Shown: positions 6,774 to 64,000 of the stretch, one piece after another | Layout of the letters: every line of letters starts with the position of its first letter | Numbering within the stretch: position 1 is the first letter of the stretch | From: a virus | Reading direction: 5' to 3' (one strand) | Length of the DNA stretch: 64,000 nucleotides | IMG/VR virus record: IMGVR_UViG_3300024999_000075 | Coordinates: 17,255-81,254 of that record | Notes under the pieces: model-generated | Told to the model about the DNA's origin: nothing | The model's input: the letters and a program-made list of their open reading frames with translations, nothing else | Database searches by the model: none | Program-made: the position numbers and the translations under genes

Positions 6774-7976
6774 ATGCCTTCAAGTTCATCGAGTACAGTT
6801 TGGCGGTTTTTGGAGCAGGATACTGCTGGGGAAATCGAAGTAGGTAATCCCCAAACCTGGAGGGTTACGGGCGGAGCAATTACCCAGACGACAACTAACT
6901 CCCCTGATAATGAACTGCGATCTGATCGCGGTCGTGGTGACTCCACTTTAGTCTCTGGGTCAGTGGCTGGTACTATCAACATTAACTGGTCGCATGGCAC
7001 CCATGAGGAATTCCTATCAGCTTTGTTAGCAGATGCACCTACTCCTGTGGCTGCTGGGGGGGTGAAAACTGTCAGCGACATGACATTTTCTACTGTTACT
7101 CATATTATTGGCTCTGCTTCAGCTGCCTTACCAGTTTTGGCTAAAGGGCAGTGGTTCCGTATCACAGGTGCTGTGTCTGCTCTGAATAATGGTATTTACC
7201 GCGCCAGCCTAACTACTGCTCCAACAACTACCGAGATCGTAGTTGAAACCGTTGTTAAAGATTGTGGACTTACTGCTACTGCTGATGAATGTGTAATTTC
7301 GAGCACAAGATACCTGCAAGGCAATGATACTCCACGGTTTTTTACAATAGAACGTGAGTTGGCTGACGTAGGCAAGTACCATACCTTCGCTGATGCTTAT
7401 GTGACGGGTATGAACCTTTCTTACTCCCCCTCTGAACGTGTATCTGGCAGTTTTAGCTTTATGTGTAAAGAGCCTGAGGTTCATGGCGATGCTTCCCTGT
7501 TTCCTGGAATAGCCACGGCTGTTGCTGCCACAACCTCGACCACGTATAACACTGTGGTTGGTACACATGTTCTAGTAGACGGCACAGATCTGGGGGAGGG
7601 ATGTATAGCTTCCCTTAACCTTGACCTATCAGCCGGAGCTAGAGAGAGACGATGTTTGGGTAGTGGGCTTGCACCTTCAGGAATTGCATTTGATTCCCAT
7701 TCAGTTACAGCCAGTGGTAGTGTATTCTTTGGGACTGCTGCTACTTCTGCTCTTTATAATAAACAATTGACTGATCTGCCGATTAACATTGCAATGTGCG
7801 TTACCGACGCAGCAGGAAACGCCCTCGCTTTTAGTATTCCTAGAGCTAAGCTTACAGCGGCAAGCATCGACGGAGGTTCGGCTGGAAGTGACGTGTTGAT
7901 GTCCTTCAATATTGAAGCTAGCACCGACAGTACGTTAGGCAGTATGATTGCCTTTGATGTTATGGGCGCTCTGTAA
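6774..7976 (+). CDS. Major tail tube protein
   Basis: Protein of 400 aa with a strong TAAGGAG site. Repeated beta domains include GTININWSHGTHEEFLSALL, LQGNDTPRFFTIERELADVGKYHTF and YVTGMNLSYSPSERVSGSFSFM, a combination characteristic of the large phage tail tube protein family found in long-tailed siphoviruses. It polymerises around the tape measure. Length exceeds minimal tube proteins (about 200-250 aa), consistent with an added C-terminal beta domain. A strong terminator follows at once, as for the capsid gene. Confidence 0.85.
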   Translation: MPSSSSSTVWRFLEQDTAGEIEVGNPQTWRVTGGAITQTTTNSPDNELRSDRGRGDSTLVSGSVAGTININWSHGTHEEFLSALLADAPTPVAAGGVKTVSDMTFSTVTHIIGSASAALPVLAKGQWFRITGAVSALNNGIYRASLTTAPTTTEIVVETVVKDCGLTATADECVISSTRYLQGNDTPRFFTIERELADVGKYHTFADAYVTGMNLSYSPSERVSGSFSFMCKEPEVHGDASLFPGIATAVAATTSTTYNTVVGTHVLVDGTDLGEGCIASLNLDLSAGARERRCLGSGLAPSGIAFDSHSVTASGSVFFGTAATSALYNKQLTDLPINIAMCVTDAAGNALAFSIPRAKLTAASIDGGSAGSDVLMSFNIEASTDSTLGSMIAFDVMGAL

Positions 7977-25790: not shown

Positions 25791-25989
25791 AAAGTCGGTA
25801 CAGCCGGTGACTGATAAGAAACTACTATCGAGCAAAATGAAAATAACATTAATAATAGTGACATTGTTTATCATTATCTCTGCGTGTTTACACCAGTGGC
25901 ACCAAGCTGTAGTAGCGCAAGATCTACATGATACCCTACAACTGAAAGCCTACTATGAGCGGATGGCCAGGGAGTATCCCGCCCAATGA
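25753..25989 (+). CDS. Small membrane protein, possible spanin
   Basis: Protein of 78 aa (ATG 25753, inside the lyase gene) or 50 aa (ATG 25837). One hydrophobic segment, ITLIIVTLFIIISACL, then a hydrophilic helix QDLHDTLQLKAYYERMAREY. With the later start, ISAC could be a lipobox; with the earlier start the segment is a signal anchor as in inner-membrane spanins. No good ribosome site exists for either. It overlaps the endolysin start by ATGA, which supports a role in lysis. Confidence 0.45.
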   Translation: MAMLSNLLRKHHKKSVQPVTDKKLLSSKMKITLIIVTLFIIISACLHQWHQAVVAQDLHDTLQLKAYYERMAREYPAQ

Positions 25990-26492
25990 CAGAACAAGAT
26001 AAAAAACTCCTGGCCTTCACCTTCATGTATGATCACGAAGGTGGGACCAGTTATGATGTCAATGATCGTGGTGGTCTTACGAGATTCGGTATCTGCAAGA
26101 AACAGTACCCGGATGTGGACATAGCCAATCTTACCAAAGAACTAGCTGATCAGATCTATACCAGAGACTACTGGCTAAAGAACAAATGTCACCTGATGCC
26201 TGCTCCCATAGCCATAGTTGTATTTGATTCCTCTGTTAACTGTGGTGTTGGCTCCGGCGCGACCTGGCTCCAAAAAGCTATTAACTCTCAGGGTGACAAT
26301 ATTAAAGTGGATGGTGTAATAGGACCAATGACTCTAGCCAAATTAGACAGTTGTAACCCTCACAATATAGCTGGTAAGATAATAGCTTATCGTCTTAGAA
26401 GATACTCCAAACTCATCTCCAGAGATCCCAGTCAGAGGGGGTTTATAACTAGCTGGATAAACAGAGCTGCTGACCTTCTTGAATATATTTAG
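25986..26492 (+). CDS. Endolysin, GH108-type muramidase
   Basis: Protein of 168 aa with DHEGGTSYDVNDRGGLTRFGIC at the N-terminus; the Glu of HEGG (E18) is the catalytic acid of glycoside hydrolase family 108 (the ZliS/secretion-activator type). The C-terminal part (DGVIGPMTLAKLDSCNP, then YRLRRYSKLISRDPSQRGFITSWINRA) matches the peptidoglycan-binding segment of this family. No signal peptide, so release depends on a holin. Length is normal for the family. Confidence 0.88.
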   Translation: MTEQDKKLLAFTFMYDHEGGTSYDVNDRGGLTRFGICKKQYPDVDIANLTKELADQIYTRDYWLKNKCHLMPAPIAIVVFDSSVNCGVGSGATWLQKAINSQGDNIKVDGVIGPMTLAKLDSCNPHNIAGKIIAYRLRRYSKLISRDPSQRGFITSWINRAADLLEYI

Positions 26493-47231: not shown

Positions 47232-47418
47232 GGATATTCTCCCATTCTATCCAATGAACAATGTTATCTACATCTTTAACCAAAGCCCTTGACTTGGCTA
47301 TTGCTACTATAGATCCTTTTCTCTTTCTCTTTCTCTTCGTGTCGGCTAAGAACTTTACCTCCCTACCTAATAGATCTCCCACCCAATCGTGAATTATCTC
47401 ATCTGGTTTCATACTCAC
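47221..47418 (-). CDS. Small basic protein, possibly nucleic-acid binding (65 aa)
   Basis: GTG start overlapping the TS-like gene stop (GTGA). Contains a poly-basic run DTKRKRKRKGS followed by a beta segment IVAIAKSRALVKDVDNIVHW, resembling a small SH3-like or KOW-type layout. Function unknown. Confidence 0.5.
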   Translation of the reverse strand: MSMKPDEIIHDWVGDLLGREVKFLADTKRKRKRKGSIVAIAKSRALVKDVDNIVHWIEWENIHAD

Positions 47419-48140
47419 ACCCCATGAACTCCAATAAATTCATCTTTATCAGCCATAGCCTCTTCGCTGACTTGAATCTTATCCACATTCAGACAGTCAA
47501 CGATACTGAAGTACTGCTCGTACAAATGGAGACCATCACTGAAGGCTATAATGGGACCGTCATCAACCTGAAACTCCATATGTGACCACACATATTCCTT
47601 CAACATCTGAAGCCCCCCAAGGTTCTCTGGTAGGCCAGCGTAAAGATCCCACGACCTGAAGTAGACACACATTTGGAACTTACCGTTGACAACCTTAAAC
47701 GAAATGGATCTGAGGCAGGGAGGATCGGACAGGAAGGTGGTTGACACATCCCCAATACAGATGGTTGCTTGATTGGTGTTACCTTTGGAGTCGTTTAACA
47801 AAACAATTATCTGGTCAATCTGCTGAAGTATAAATTCTCCGTAGGTATAAATTTCGTTAGGCTCCTTCTCTCTCCCCACAATGTACCTCTGAAAATACTT
47901 CTCAATCTTCTCTTCAGAGGTTGGTGGTGGGATTCCTGGAGGAGTTATCGGAGCAAATGGTGTACTCCAGGGTGCCGTTACAACCCCTGTAAAATATGGT
48001 AATTGTTTTCTGATCTGTCCTACATAACTCCCACCTTTCACCAGGAAGTCTTCCCCCTTCTGGATACAAAGAGACATTGCTTCCCGCCATAGACAGTCTA
48101 TAGTTGGGACTATTACACAGTTGGTTTCTAAATTTATCAC
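47415..48140 (-). CDS. Thymidylate-synthase-like enzyme (dUMP methylase or hydroxymethylase)
   Basis: Protein of 241 aa, GTG start with GGGAGGG upstream. Residues 139-200 carry the TS core: DPPCLRS with the nucleophile Cys142, then VYFRSWDLYAGLPENLGGL (RS-x-D 162-165, N173 in the pyrimidine-selecting position) and FSDGLHLYEQ in place of the usual HIY. The PPCLRS form and short length resemble archaeal-type ThyA more than bacterial ThyA. Asn173 suggests a dUMP substrate. It may make dTMP or a 5-substituted dUMP for modified DNA. Confidence 0.7.
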   Translation of the reverse strand: MINLETNCVIVPTIDCLWREAMSLCIQKGEDFLVKGGSYVGQIRKQLPYFTGVVTAPWSTPFAPITPPGIPPPTSEEKIEKYFQRYIVGREKEPNEIYTYGEFILQQIDQIIVLLNDSKGNTNQATICIGDVSTTFLSDPPCLRSISFKVVNGKFQMCVYFRSWDLYAGLPENLGGLQMLKEYVWSHMEFQVDDGPIIAFSDGLHLYEQYFSIVDCLNVDKIQVSEEAMADKDEFIGVHGV

Positions 48141-48189: not shown

Positions 48190-48279
48190 TTATTTCCAAG
48201 ATGGAAACTTATTACGCCATTTCCTAGCTGTCCACCCTATAAATATTCCGACTGCCAAAGCAATTAAATCTCCAATCAT
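48190..48279 (-). CDS. 29-aa single-span membrane peptide
   Basis: MIGDLIALAVGIFIGWTARKW then a basic end: one hydrophobic helix and positive residues. Its ATG overlaps the stop of the solute-binding protein gene (ATGA), which argues that it is translated. Confidence 0.45.
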   Translation of the reverse strand: MIGDLIALAVGIFIGWTARKWRNKFPSWK

Positions 48280-49097
48280 TTCAACAGAGTCTCCCTATAG
48301 TTCAAGACCAAGTTGGAAAGCTTCTCCAGCAGCTTAGGGTCAGCTTCTGACCGTGCTACTACCACAGCGTCAACATAAATCGTCTTTACTTTGTCGGCAA
48401 AGAATCCCTTCTCCACCTGTAAGTTATCAAAACGATACACAGGTTTCCCAGTTGGCTTGTAGACATCGTTGAGATCACTATCACTGATACTAATCATCTT
48501 CAAACTTTTGTTTTTCATAACAGTCTGAAGCAAGTCATTATTGGCATCCGGTCGGGCTACCCACATAACAGCGTCAAGGCCAGAGTCAGGAGATGAAGCA
48601 AGTTTACCAAGCGCTCTGTTCCCGCTGGTGAAAGACACCGCAGCTTCCTTATAACCAGGCTCCAACTGCCGCATGTAATCCCAAGTCACTACTGATCCTG
48701 TACCTTGTTCACCAATGGCAATAGTGGCTCCCTTCTTCTGAAGATCGTTCTCACTCTTAACTTTCCCGTTCTTGTTCACTGCTGCGTAGACACACTCCTC
48801 ATAGAGTGGGCCTATAACTTCCACTGTCTGAACAGCACTAGGATTCTGAGACATGTAGAAAGCCAAGGCATCCATCTGAACCAAAGCTATATCCGCCTCA
48901 CCCTTGACCAGACGATCCAAGTTTTCTACTGAGCCTTTTGATTCCATTACCTTATCCTTACTCATCCCAAGGCCGGAGGCAATGTTATGGCCTACCTTGA
49001 AATACGTTCCTGTTGACTTTCCTGTGGAAATCCCCTCAGCGTTAGCCAACGAACACATCAACATCCCAACTGCTACCAGACCAATAATTCTTTTCAT
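48276..49097 (-). CDS. TAXI-family periplasmic solute-binding protein
   Basis: Protein of 273 aa with a Sec signal peptide (MKRIIGLVAVGMLMCSLANA). The mature protein opens ISTGKSTGTYFKVGHNIA, then ESKGSVENLDRLVKGEADIALVQ and IGPLYEECVYAAV ... ATIAIGEQGTGS, all hallmarks of TAXI-type TRAP solute receptors. In bacteria these deliver substrates to DctM/DctQ permeases; no permease is present here. A phage copy may redirect uptake by a host transporter or bind a periplasmic signal. Length is slightly short of the usual 310-330 aa. Good candidate for host-derived gene. Confidence 0.85.
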   Translation of the reverse strand: MKRIIGLVAVGMLMCSLANAEGISTGKSTGTYFKVGHNIASGLGMSKDKVMESKGSVENLDRLVKGEADIALVQMDALAFYMSQNPSAVQTVEVIGPLYEECVYAAVNKNGKVKSENDLQKKGATIAIGEQGTGSVVTWDYMRQLEPGYKEAAVSFTSGNRALGKLASSPDSGLDAVMWVARPDANNDLLQTVMKNKSLKMISISDSDLNDVYKPTGKPVYRFDNLQVEKGFFADKVKTIYVDAVVVARSEADPKLLEKLSNLVLNYRETLLK

Positions 49098-49115
49098 TCT
49101 CCAGCTCTCCCTAAA

Positions 49116-49367
49116 TTAATGTTTAACTACACCTGGAAGACAATCTTCCACTACCTCATTTAACAACGTCACTTCCAATGCTGTCATTGTCAGAGCGAAG
49201 GTAGACACTATTCGCCCACCCTCAATCAAATTATAATTGATACATGCTCTCTCAAGATCCTGCTGACACATCCTCACTGCTTGCTGAACTACATCTGGCA
49301 TAGTTAGCAGGGTAGACTTCATTTTTGTTAAGGACTTCAAAGCTTCAATCTTCTGTTCTTGGGTCAT
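49116..49367 (-). CDS. Hypothetical helical protein (83 aa)
   Basis: MTQEQKIEALKSLTKMKSTL start, then CQQDLERACINYNLIEGGR. Located immediately before the solute-binding protein gene in the same operon. No family recognised. Confidence 0.55.
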   Translation of the reverse strand: MTQEQKIEALKSLTKMKSTLLTMPDVVQQAVRMCQQDLERACINYNLIEGGRIVSTFALTMTALEVTLLNEVVEDCLPGVVKH

Positions 49368-50144: not shown

Positions 50145-50321
50145 TTGTGTCTCCTTATAAAGGTTTATAGTCCAACCTTACACAAAATTATTAAGCTAGG
50201 CAATAGCCAAAAGTTTTTTGTTGTTAAATTTTTCCAGTGTGTTAAGCTGTGTATGTCTCCTTCATGGGTCCTCCTCCCCGCCTGCCGCCATGGTCCTCCT
50301 CCCATGGCGGCAGTGTTGTTT
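50145..50321. other. 177-bp intergenic region with a GC-rich hairpin
   Basis: No convincing gene. It holds a perfect 12-bp inverted repeat CTGCCGCCATGG/CCATGGCGGCAG (50282-50293, 50302-50313) whose 8-nt loop reads GAGGAGGA on the minus strand; a second GGGGAGGAGGACC follows. No T-tract on the minus strand, so not a simple terminator for the leftward operon. A promoter for the 217-aa gene may lie at about 50165-50215 but no good match is seen. Confidence 0.6.
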
Positions 50322-59906: not shown

Positions 59907-59966
59907 TCAATCCCTCCACTGTGTTATAATTTCTTCAATCTCCCTGTAAGCCTTATGTTTAAGCAT
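59907..59966 (-). CDS. 19-aa micro-ORF
   Basis: AAGGAGTTGTTAT precedes the ATG; it overlaps the end of the CCA-adding enzyme gene and its stop lies 2 nt before the next start. It may be translated or merely couple the flanking genes. Confidence 0.3.
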   Translation of the reverse strand: MLKHKAYREIEEIITQWRD

Positions 59967-61242
59967 ATAACAACTCCTTAGCTTTAGTTAATAAATCCAA
60001 TGTATTATTTACTTCCTCTCCCTCTTCAATCACATATTGCAGTAAATCTTTCTGAAGCCTCCCGACAATTGGTCCAGGCTCCAGAAACAAAAGGTGAATC
60101 AACTCACCACCAGATATTGCCAAACTATGAGTTGACAATGTAACTTTCTCCTCTTGTTGAAACGCTCTAATCATTTCTTTGATTTCAGAAATGGTATAGG
60201 GATCTTTGTTAAGATTAGCTCTGTGATCAGCAATCCTAAGTCGCAAGAAATCCTCCCAGGTCAGATTATAAGTAGCAAGTTTCGCTACCAGCTTCCTAAT
60301 GGATTTTGGTGAAGATCCTTTGATGACAGTATGCATATGTAACTTCGTCAAACCAACTACAGCATTAATCCACTCATTGCTGAATTTAAGGTATGTGAGC
60401 AACTTTTGATTGATCTCAGCCTCAAGGTCATGATGGCAGATAAAGCTCCTATCATCGGGATTGTAGGCTGCTGGCTTGCCAATATCATGCAAATATCCTG
60501 CTAATTTTACCATTGGGTACTTGGGGCTGATGGCATCACCTGTTAGCATTAGGTGTTGGAATACATCTTCTAAATGGAAATTACCTCCGTCATGTTTCCA
60601 ACACCGCTCCAGATCCGGGAACACTGTGCATAAACTATTCATATCTTTCAAAGCCTCAAAGAAGAAAGATGTCCATCTAGCTTCCAAGGATTTAATTAAC
60701 TCTAATTGAATTCTCTCTGGCTTAATTCCATCTAACAGATTAGACAGAAGAGAGGCTGAACTTATAGTCCTTTGAGATAGATATAACCCTCCAGTAGTAA
60801 ACCTAGCAGCCCTCAAAATCCTCACTGGGTCTTCCTTGATCCTGTCATAAGCCCACCCAACAAAATTAATTAATTTATATTTTATGTCCCTCCTTCCTTT
60901 ATGGAGATCAATTAGTATCCCATCAAAAGACATTGCCATAGCGTTTATAGAAAAGTCCCTTCTGGCTAGATCTTCCTCAATGGTGTCTGTGTATCGGCAG
61001 TTGTCCCCTACGTCAGCTCTAAAAGTTGCAAATTCAAATCCATCAACGATGACTACACCGAAATGAGCACCGACAAAGTTCACCTTATGACCTTGAAATA
61101 CTTCAACAATCTGTCCAGGTGTAGCTTTGGTAGCGTAGTCATAGTCTTTTGGAGTCTTACCAAGCAGGATATCGCGTACTGCTCCTCCAACAAGGTAGGT
61201 TGGATAGTGGTTGTTCAGTTTCTGCCACAGCTCTCTGGACAT
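59959..61242 (-). CDS. cca: CCA-adding enzyme (tRNA nucleotidyltransferase) with HD domain
   Basis: Protein of 427 aa. Class II nucleotidyltransferase head: LVGGAVRD (17-24), the catalytic DYD (33-35), RRDFSINAMA (94-103) and EDPVRILRAARF, then a PolyA_pol RNA-binding part and a C-terminal HD phosphohydrolase domain with GYLHDIGKP (near 250), as in gammaproteobacterial Cca. It adds or repairs the 3' CCA of tRNAs. A full-length cca gene is rare in phages; it could repair host tRNA ends during infection or finish phage tRNAs that lack encoded CCA. Confidence 0.9.
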   Translation of the reverse strand: MSRELWQKLNNHYPTYLVGGAVRDILLGKTPKDYDYATKATPGQIVEVFQGHKVNFVGAHFGVVIVDGFEFATFRADVGDNCRYTDTIEEDLARRDFSINAMAMSFDGILIDLHKGRRDIKYKLINFVGWAYDRIKEDPVRILRAARFTTGGLYLSQRTISSASLLSNLLDGIKPERIQLELIKSLEARWTSFFFEALKDMNSLCTVFPDLERCWKHDGGNFHLEDVFQHLMLTGDAISPKYPMVKLAGYLHDIGKPAAYNPDDRSFICHHDLEAEINQKLLTYLKFSNEWINAVVGLTKLHMHTVIKGSSPKSIRKLVAKLATYNLTWEDFLRLRIADHRANLNKDPYTISEIKEMIRAFQQEEKVTLSTHSLAISGGELIHLLFLEPGPIVGRLQKDLLQYVIEEGEEVNNTLDLLTKAKELLYA

Positions 61243-63213: not shown

Positions 63214-63382
63214 TTACCACCTCGTCAATCTCCTCATCAGTCATATCCTTAGCCGCAATTTGAATCCTATAGTCGTCAGACTTCCAGCCGTAGTCTTCCA
63301 GGTTTAGCTGGCGGCACCAAGTTTTATCAGGCCAGATGTAGATTATTTGGTGAGGTGTCATGGTCAATACTCTGCAATCCAT
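63200..63382 (-). CDS. Hypothetical protein (53-60 aa)
   Basis: TPHQIIYIWPDKTWCRQLNL, then AAKDMTDEEIDEVVNATI. The start may be the ATG at 63382 or 63361; the latter lies directly after the upstream stop. Unknown. Confidence 0.5.
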   Translation of the reverse strand: MDCRVLTMTPHQIIYIWPDKTWCRQLNLEDYGWKSDDYRIQIAAKDMTDEEIDEVVNATI

Positions 63383-64000
63383 TCTACATCTTCAAGACCA
63401 AAGCTCCCGTTCTTAGCCTTCCAACAATCTGTCTTCCTAGTTTCAAGGAAGTATTCCCGCTCCGTTGAAGGGCAGAAGCAATTTAAGAATAAGAAAGGGG
63501 ATGAATATCCATCAAGTGTAAAGCTGATAATACTCATTTGATAACCTTGATCATCTATGTCTGAGTGGATAGTTTTAAGGTTGGGCAAGTCTTTCATTTT
63601 TAGCTTGTCCATCCTCTCATAAGCCACTCGGCGTTGTTCCATATTGGCTATGGAAAATACTTCTGAAGCTATCAGTTGATCTCTCCTAACTTTATCAAAC
63701 ATCTCCTTAGGGAATTCAACATCATCTATTTTGTAAATGATGTCACCCGTCTTAGATAAGAGATATTCACTACATTTATCTGTCATATACCACCTGCCTT
63801 TTGAAGCAATATCCCATAAATGTTGTTGAGTCTCAAGGTGGAAGTCTGCTTCGACGTAGAGACTCCCACCAGCGCTGGTCAAGGCAGGAGCTTGGAAGTC
63901 TGCTCTGACGGAGAGATACCCACCAGCGCTGGTCAAGGCGGGGGCCTGGAAGTCTGCTTCGACAAAGAGATACCCACCCACACTGGTCAAGGCAGGAGCT
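63364..64000 (-). CDS. Repeat protein with 18-aa units, truncated at the window edge
   Basis: The frame is open to the right edge, so the start is missing. The visible N-terminal part is 18-aa repeats of type APALTSAGGYLSVRADFQ (54-nt DNA units at about 63850-64000), a beta-solenoid or LRR-like pattern common in phage and prophage proteins. The C-terminal 150 residues (SEYLLSKTGDIIYKIDDVEF ... FSIANMEQRRVAYERMDKLK) form a globular domain reminiscent of DUF6745-type sequences that follow such repeats. Function unknown. Confidence 0.65.
   Translation of the reverse strand, partial: APALTSVGGYLFVEADFQAPALTSAGGYLSVRADFQAPALTSAGGSLYVEADFHLETQQHLWDIASKGRWYMTDKCSEYLLSKTGDIIYKIDDVEFPKEMFDKVRRDQLIASEVFSIANMEQRRVAYERMDKLKMKDLPNLKTIHSDIDDQGYQMSIISFTLDGYSSPFLFLNCFCPSTEREYFLETRKTDCWKAKNGSFGLEDVEWIAEY

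Follow-up and report, generated by a model that had tools for sequence, protein, structure and literature searches.

Why a virus should encode a periplasmic solute-binding protein without a permease, and couple to it a membrane peptide of 29 amino acids, is the question raised by a pair of genes in the 64,000-nucleotide stretch of DNA analysed here (the window), which is part of an 81,254-bp IMG/VR virus record. The pair and its immediate neighbours comprise the following features.

47415..48140, minus strand: gene downstream of the pair, thymidylate-synthase-like protein, also conserved in the sister locus L002
48190..48279, minus strand: single-span 29-aa peptide MIGDLIALAVGIFIGWTARKWRNKFPSWK, with an ATGA overlap with the TAXI stop codon
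48276..49097, minus strand: TAXI-type solute-binding protein of 273 aa (PF16868, PHROG 6856), ATG start
48291..48295, minus strand: GGGAG, Shine-Dalgarno-like sequence of the peptide gene, within the coding end of the TAXI gene (by eye from the sequence)
49038..49097, minus strand: signal peptide MKRIIGLVAVGMLMCSLANA, predicted to be of type I (Sec), with cleavage placed before E21 (by eye from the sequence)
49099..49102, minus strand: GGAG, Shine-Dalgarno-like sequence of the TAXI gene (by eye from the sequence)
49116..49367, minus strand: upstream 83-aa ORF, function not assigned, with a 91-aa ORF at the same place in L002

The binding protein and its coupled peptide

The product of the larger gene matches the PF16868 model NMT1_3 (4.8e-18; 66 bits against a curated cut-off of 27) and PHROG 6856 (1.7e-56). 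With TIGR02122, the model of the TRAP_TAXI subfamily, it scores 63 bits, under the curated cut-off of 84, and it is therefore called a TAXI-type protein here rather than a subunit of a TRAP system of the TAXI kind; a phage relative (L114) exceeds that cut-off. The seven top PDB matches of its AlphaFold2 model (pLDDT 88.7) are all TAXI binding proteins, indicating a TAXI-type Venus-flytrap fold; the top matches include 4ddd, 8u79, 1us4, 9ibo, 9ibp and 8s4j, several of them with glutamate bound. The domain match and the modelled fold bear out an earlier, sequence-only reading of this DNA, which had described a phage-borne TAXI solute-binding protein, while its statement that all family hallmarks are present was slightly generous, as PF16868 and the fold agree with it and the TIGR02122 score does not. 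The signal peptide that it had proposed is likewise seen on inspection of the sequence, with MKRIIGLVAVGMLMCSLANA removed before a glutamate; by the same inspection, the signal region contains no lipobox.

The peptide gene starts within the overlap with the TAXI stop codon (...TTGAAATGATT...), and its product carries a net charge of +5 over the last 15 residues. Both genes are kept in the sister locus L002 (contig IMGVR_UViG_3300020045_009164), where the TAXI protein is 87% identical to that of the window and the peptide, of 30 aa, is GTGA-coupled. Comparison of the two loci with our own NG86 code gave a pS of 0.76, at which synonymous sites are saturated, and a pN of 0.076 for the TAXI gene and 0.26 for the peptide gene. 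Both genes look translated and under purifying selection. Conservation in L002 together with the overlap rules out a chance small ORF in the window; the peptide as originally delineated, with its coordinates, strand and ATGA overlap, proved exact and a real gene.

Genomic surroundings

No permease-like ORF was found in the whole 81,254-bp record, which is possibly a fragment and in which short ORFs reach at most four hydrophobic spans; to this extent the claim that no TRAP permease lies alongside is upheld. No GltS gene adjoins the TAXI gene or is fused to it, and there is no polytopic ORF in the record. The pair sits among early or metabolic genes, on the same strand as the DNA polymerase, and far from the GH108 lysozyme gene of the window (25986-26492). 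ARAGORN detected no tRNA gene in the window, and there is no known RNA element near the pair; promoter and terminator scans around it gave nothing above shuffled sequences.

Several other elements of the window were recorded. The best model of the thymidylate-synthase-like protein (47415-48140, minus strand) is TIGR03283 (thy_syn_methano), matched far under the cut-off, and the product could be a divergent or altered enzyme. The N-terminus of the ORF at 59959-61242 (minus strand) resembles a tRNA nucleotidyltransferase or poly(A) polymerase, in a window where ARAGORN found no tRNA gene. Near the end of the record, the ORF at 63364-63990 (minus strand) contains near-identical repeats (TSAGGYLxVxADFQAPAL...). 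At 50282-50313, on the plus strand and inside a run of minus-strand genes, a G+C-rich hairpin of 12 pairs is followed by a T-rich stretch.

Relatives and phylogeny

Protein searches identified TAXI homologues in jumbo phages of Erwinia, Klebsiella and Serratia, in Pseudaeromonas phage KLEP7, EBPR siphovirus 2 and Bradyrhizobium phage BDU-MI-1, and in phages of Ruegeria, Sinorhizobium, Rhizobium and Agrobacterium; the gene occurs in Klebsiella prophages as well. T5-like Vibrio phages match weakly, one of them being confirmed by PF16868 and PHROG 6856. PHROG 6856, to which the window protein and each of the six tested phage homologues belong, is annotated as 'unknown function' and records neither a pocket analysis nor a partner; individual genomes label members of the family 'TRAP transporter solute receptor'. 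A search of open-licence papers brought up phage TAXI proteins in annotation mentions only, and no paper dealing with them or with their small-span partners. Scans of IMG/VR returned 75 and 47 loci on contigs partly shared between the scans, many of them from isolate genomes and hence apparently prophages; the loci form 34 clusters at 85% identity. In jumbo phages the pair is near tRNA clusters, and for Ralstonia phage RP12 a solute receptor has been reported, listed beside ABC transporter subunits (PMC5468394).

In a tree built from 79 sequences, 35 cellular TAXI proteins, a sample chosen by phage-derived patterns and thus not random, are set off by a branch with 100/95 support from the phage proteins, with which a few others group. 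The exceptions on the phage side are two cellular proteins (L141 and L142), one from a Bdellovibrionaceae MAG (L145) and one from a phage-like MAG contig (L164). The phage or cellular label changes at least three times on the tree, so that a single phage origin is not established. The breadth of the family, the tree and the selection acting on the gene rule out a recent host-derived passenger; a recent unconserved passenger was the outcome that the sequence-only reading had named as fatal to its own proposal.

Some of these relatives have unusual arrangements. The TAXI domain of L145 occupies residues 523-756 of an 812-aa ORF (232-2667) with no other Pfam match, an unusual fusion. In L141 (8001-12038), the closest cellular relative, downstream of the TAXI-type gene come a gene that matches BPD_transp_1 twice and an ATPase-like ORF, and the protein thus adjoins a predicted ABC transporter, not a TRAP system. 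The Peregrinibacteria MAG contig L164 (7470-8852) is phage-like and encodes a phage-type TAXI protein and an HNH-like ORF; a 42-aa ORF at 7470-7598, approximately 400 bp upstream of the TAXI gene, comprises an aspartate, a span and a basic end. More than 100 plasmids, mostly of Klebsiella, contain a fragment, apparently a remnant, that corresponds with 91% identity to just the C-terminal 59 or so residues of the TAXI protein found in prophages. Foldseek searches of BFVD additionally matched proteins of uncultured Caudovirales with PBP2_Bug_TTT domains, by this annotation putatively a second class of phage-encoded binding proteins for secondary transporters.

The ligand pocket

In the glutamate site of VcGluP, defined by its structure and by mutants, Y45 and Q93 are critical and E125, S75 and G156 make contacts; among the 59 TAXI proteins considered in that work, Y45 is present in 78% and Q93 in 54% (PMC11574862). 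Alignment with the VcGluP sequence, copied from a HMMER alignment, showed that all 39 phage representatives keep the equivalents of Tyr45, Gln93, Glu125 and Gly156, with serine or threonine in place of Ser75. The corresponding residues of the window protein are Y31, S55, Q73, E100 and G133 (VcGluP Y45, S75, Q93, E125 and G156, respectively). Since the pocket residues are invariant in the 39 phage lineages, the phage TAXI proteins are probably ligand-competent, and the binding protein of the window is intact, exported to judge from its sequence, and probably able to bind a ligand. A degenerate binding protein kept as a scaffold is ruled out by the same invariance. VcGluP positions 157, 200 and 201 vary among the phage representatives, so the exact ligand may differ.

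Small membrane partners

ORFs of 25-70 aa with a 17-residue Kyte-Doolittle mean of at least 1.8 were counted as small-span ORFs. Such an ORF lies beside the TAXI gene in 22 of the 39 phage lineages, compared with 28 of 288 control genes of the same contigs, an approximately six-fold enrichment, and beside 3 of 65 cellular TAXI genes. In the other 17 lineages none was found beside the TAXI gene at the 1.8 threshold; there the partner may not be universal, or may be hidden, distant or unrelated. It is placed downstream with a stop-start overlap in the window, L002 and several rhizobial lineages, downstream without overlap in Klebsiella jumbo phages, and upstream in Erwinia phages, the BDU/EBPR group and the L108 group.

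The partners are mostly dissimilar in sequence and alike in layout: most have a basic C-terminal tail, and in many a single Asp stands at the start of the last span, an edge that the positive-inside rule would place on the periplasmic side. Layout, not sequence, is what they share, as if each were adapted to its host. One sequence family of partners is unsupported, as BLAST joins only sub-groups such as the one ending in -RRWFF, and the GxLMD group is confined to Klebsiella lineages. The arrangement of aspartate, span and basic tail, which was defined after the peptides had been seen, occurs in 14 of 40 loci versus 5 of 232 control genes, or, when only the first start codon is counted, in 12 of 40 versus 12 of 363 control windows; because the lineages lack statistical independence, the Fisher values serve as a guide only. 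The partners in Klebsiella prophages, with two spans and some 48-53 aa, have a G-x-L-hydrophobic-D motif in common and evolve much faster than the binding protein (pN/pS 0.63 versus 0.056).

Possible functions of the pair

Since the pairing recurs, with different tiny peptides, in many unrelated phages, a stray gene seems a poorer account of it than a true phage device not described before. We tentatively propose a widespread two-gene system in which a ligand-gated periplasmic protein acts with a swappable mini membrane protein, its basic tail in the cytoplasm, that would dock the binding protein onto, or gate, a target in the host inner membrane. As to its role, the reading that we provisionally prefer is that an amino-acid-binding protein boosts uptake in the infected cell once the peptide has docked it onto an importer of the host. 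The TAXI protein would bind a glutamate-like amino acid in the periplasm, and the peptide would dock it onto an inner-membrane importer, for which a Na+/glutamate symporter of the GltS type is a better candidate than a TRAP permease. The raised uptake of a nitrogen and carbon donor may then feed nucleotide synthesis during infection, in a manner resembling PstS.

This amino-acid capture reading is suggested by the retention of the pocket, the low TAXI pN/pS in Klebsiella prophages, the enrichment of small-span ORFs, and the precedents of TAXI-GltS coupling and of AcrZ. It also draws on the two host genomes considered below, which have GltS and no TAXI-type TRAP permease, and on the nucleotide-metabolism genes that often adjoin the TAXI gene, such as the thymidylate-synthase-like gene of the window and those for thymidylate synthase in RHph_I1_18 and ribonucleotide reductase in BDU-MI-1; in Vibrio phage D254 a dNMP kinase gene is near. 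Arguing against amino-acid capture are the ABC permease, not GltS, that adjoins the closest cellular relative, the 17 of 39 lineages in which a partner is not seen, and the neighbours of the Erwinia genes considered below, which suggest a defence directed at other phages or at toxins.

The choice of importer bears on an explanation that the sequence-only reading had put forward beside nutrient binding and the blocking of a periplasmic receptor, namely hijack of a host TRAP permease of the TAXI type. The fold and pocket are the same as those of TRAP TAXI proteins, and DctM paralogues could be a source of a host importer. Two whole genomes with phage-type TAXI prophage genes, G003 (Bradyrhizobium, locus L143) and G572 (locus L222), lack a TAXI-type fused TRAP permease over the cut-off, versus its presence in 77 of 101 genomes of the same order, and the phage proteins group largely apart from the sampled cellular ones. 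This weakens the hijack, which we consider very unlikely. GltS is encoded in both genomes, located elsewhere than the TAXI gene; it occurs in 11 of the 101 genomes of the order and in 14 of 28 of the family of G572, so that its presence in the two hosts is weak evidence, and with such a base rate GltS is not accepted as a demonstrated partner. The host comparison, of two genomes and confounded with taxonomy, argues more against TRAP dependence than for GltS.

A somewhat stronger though still unlikely alternative is superinfection exclusion or periplasmic protection, in which the pair would act at the inner membrane to keep out the DNA of other phages, or colicin-like toxins. Phage T4 offers a functional parallel in its small membrane protein Imm and periplasmic protein Sp. 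The partner peptide of Erwinia jumbo phages scores 7e-20 with phrog_1470 ('TciB-like inhibition of cell division or resistance to colicin'), and TerB is encoded by the next gene; standalone phage TerB and other Ter genes have been proposed to exclude superinfecting phages (Iyer et al. 2021; PMC7824862). The C1-like HTH regulator that precedes the TAXI gene in rhizobial temperate phages would suit expression in a lysogen. Yet a steric block needs no ligand pocket, and the pocket is invariant; the phrog_1470 match is a property of Erwinia-type peptides, being weak in one other partner (0.007) and absent for the window peptide. PADLOC gave no match of note, and nothing relevant on TciB was found in open-licence papers. 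Control of lysis or lysogeny is less probable still: the peptide would act on a holin or on the membrane potential, and the binding protein would set the timing by sensing an amino acid or cell-wall fragment, like RI, the periplasmic antiholin of T4. Such a role would fit the prophage-like region of Klebsiella plasmid pKv8917 (L210), where the pair is just upstream of a lambda-type holin and a GH104 lysozyme, and a second Klebsiella locus (L020), with endolysin and Rz-like ORFs downstream; it would also fit the two spans and basic ends of the 49-60-aa partners, features of class II holins. However, the holin adjoining the pair in the Klebsiella element is a separate gene, and lysis genes do not adjoin the pair in the window or in jumbo and rhizobial phages. 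It is also rather unlikely that the small-span ORFs have nothing to do with the TAXI protein and that the latter works by itself as the product of an ordinary auxiliary metabolic gene. Small membrane ORFs abound in phages, and the partners differ between lineages in sequence and in position, upstream or downstream, and are missing at the threshold in many. Against this stand the enrichment over control genes of the same contigs, the stop-start overlap in several separate lineages, and the conservation of the peptide in L002 and in Klebsiella prophages; moreover, in L222, a locus that a later and separate search brought in, a basic ORF with one span again lies upstream of the TAXI gene, at a distance of 31 bp.

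For phage proteins that bind a nutrient and come without a permease, phosphate (PstS) is the main known case. If the amino-acid capture reading is true, the TAXI proteins would be a second such family, predicted to bind an amino acid, repeatedly paired with a tiny membrane protein, and present in virulent jumbo phages as well as in temperate phages whose bacteria differ widely. This would suggest that capture, sensing or gatekeeping of amino acids in the periplasm is a general phage strategy, and would provide a function for PHROG 6856 and for a number of very small membrane proteins of phages.

Comparison with known systems

Cyanophage PstS, like the window protein, is a phage-encoded solute-binding protein without a permease, and phage PstS is thought to raise phosphate uptake during infection. 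It differs in its ligand, phosphate, in its ABC type and in belonging to another protein family, and we know of no membrane peptide partner for it. Among small membrane proteins, the TciB-like family phrog_1470 includes the partner of the Erwinia jumbo phages and does not match the window peptide. The transporter-tuning proteins AcrZ, KdpF and MgtS are similar to the latter in size and in having a single span, which is a matter of resemblance only; AcrZ, acting on AcrB, exemplifies a tiny membrane protein that tunes a transporter (PMC7267776).

The TAXI proteins VcGluP (VC0430) and TtGluBP (TTHA1157), with PDB entries 8s4j, 1us4/1us5 and 8u79, share with the window protein the fold and the glutamate-contact residues at about 20% identity. 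Unlike them, the window protein is phage-encoded, and a small-span peptide takes the place of the adjacent fused TRAP permease. Some TAXI proteins are known to be coupled to GltS and not to TRAP, and a parallel in arrangement is offered by BP0403 of Bordetella pertussis, a TAXI-GltS system that is likewise without TRAP membrane genes and in which the binding protein is translationally coupled to a membrane-protein gene (PMC12344293). The partner of BP0403 is a full GltS symporter, whereas that of the window protein is a peptide of 29 amino acids.
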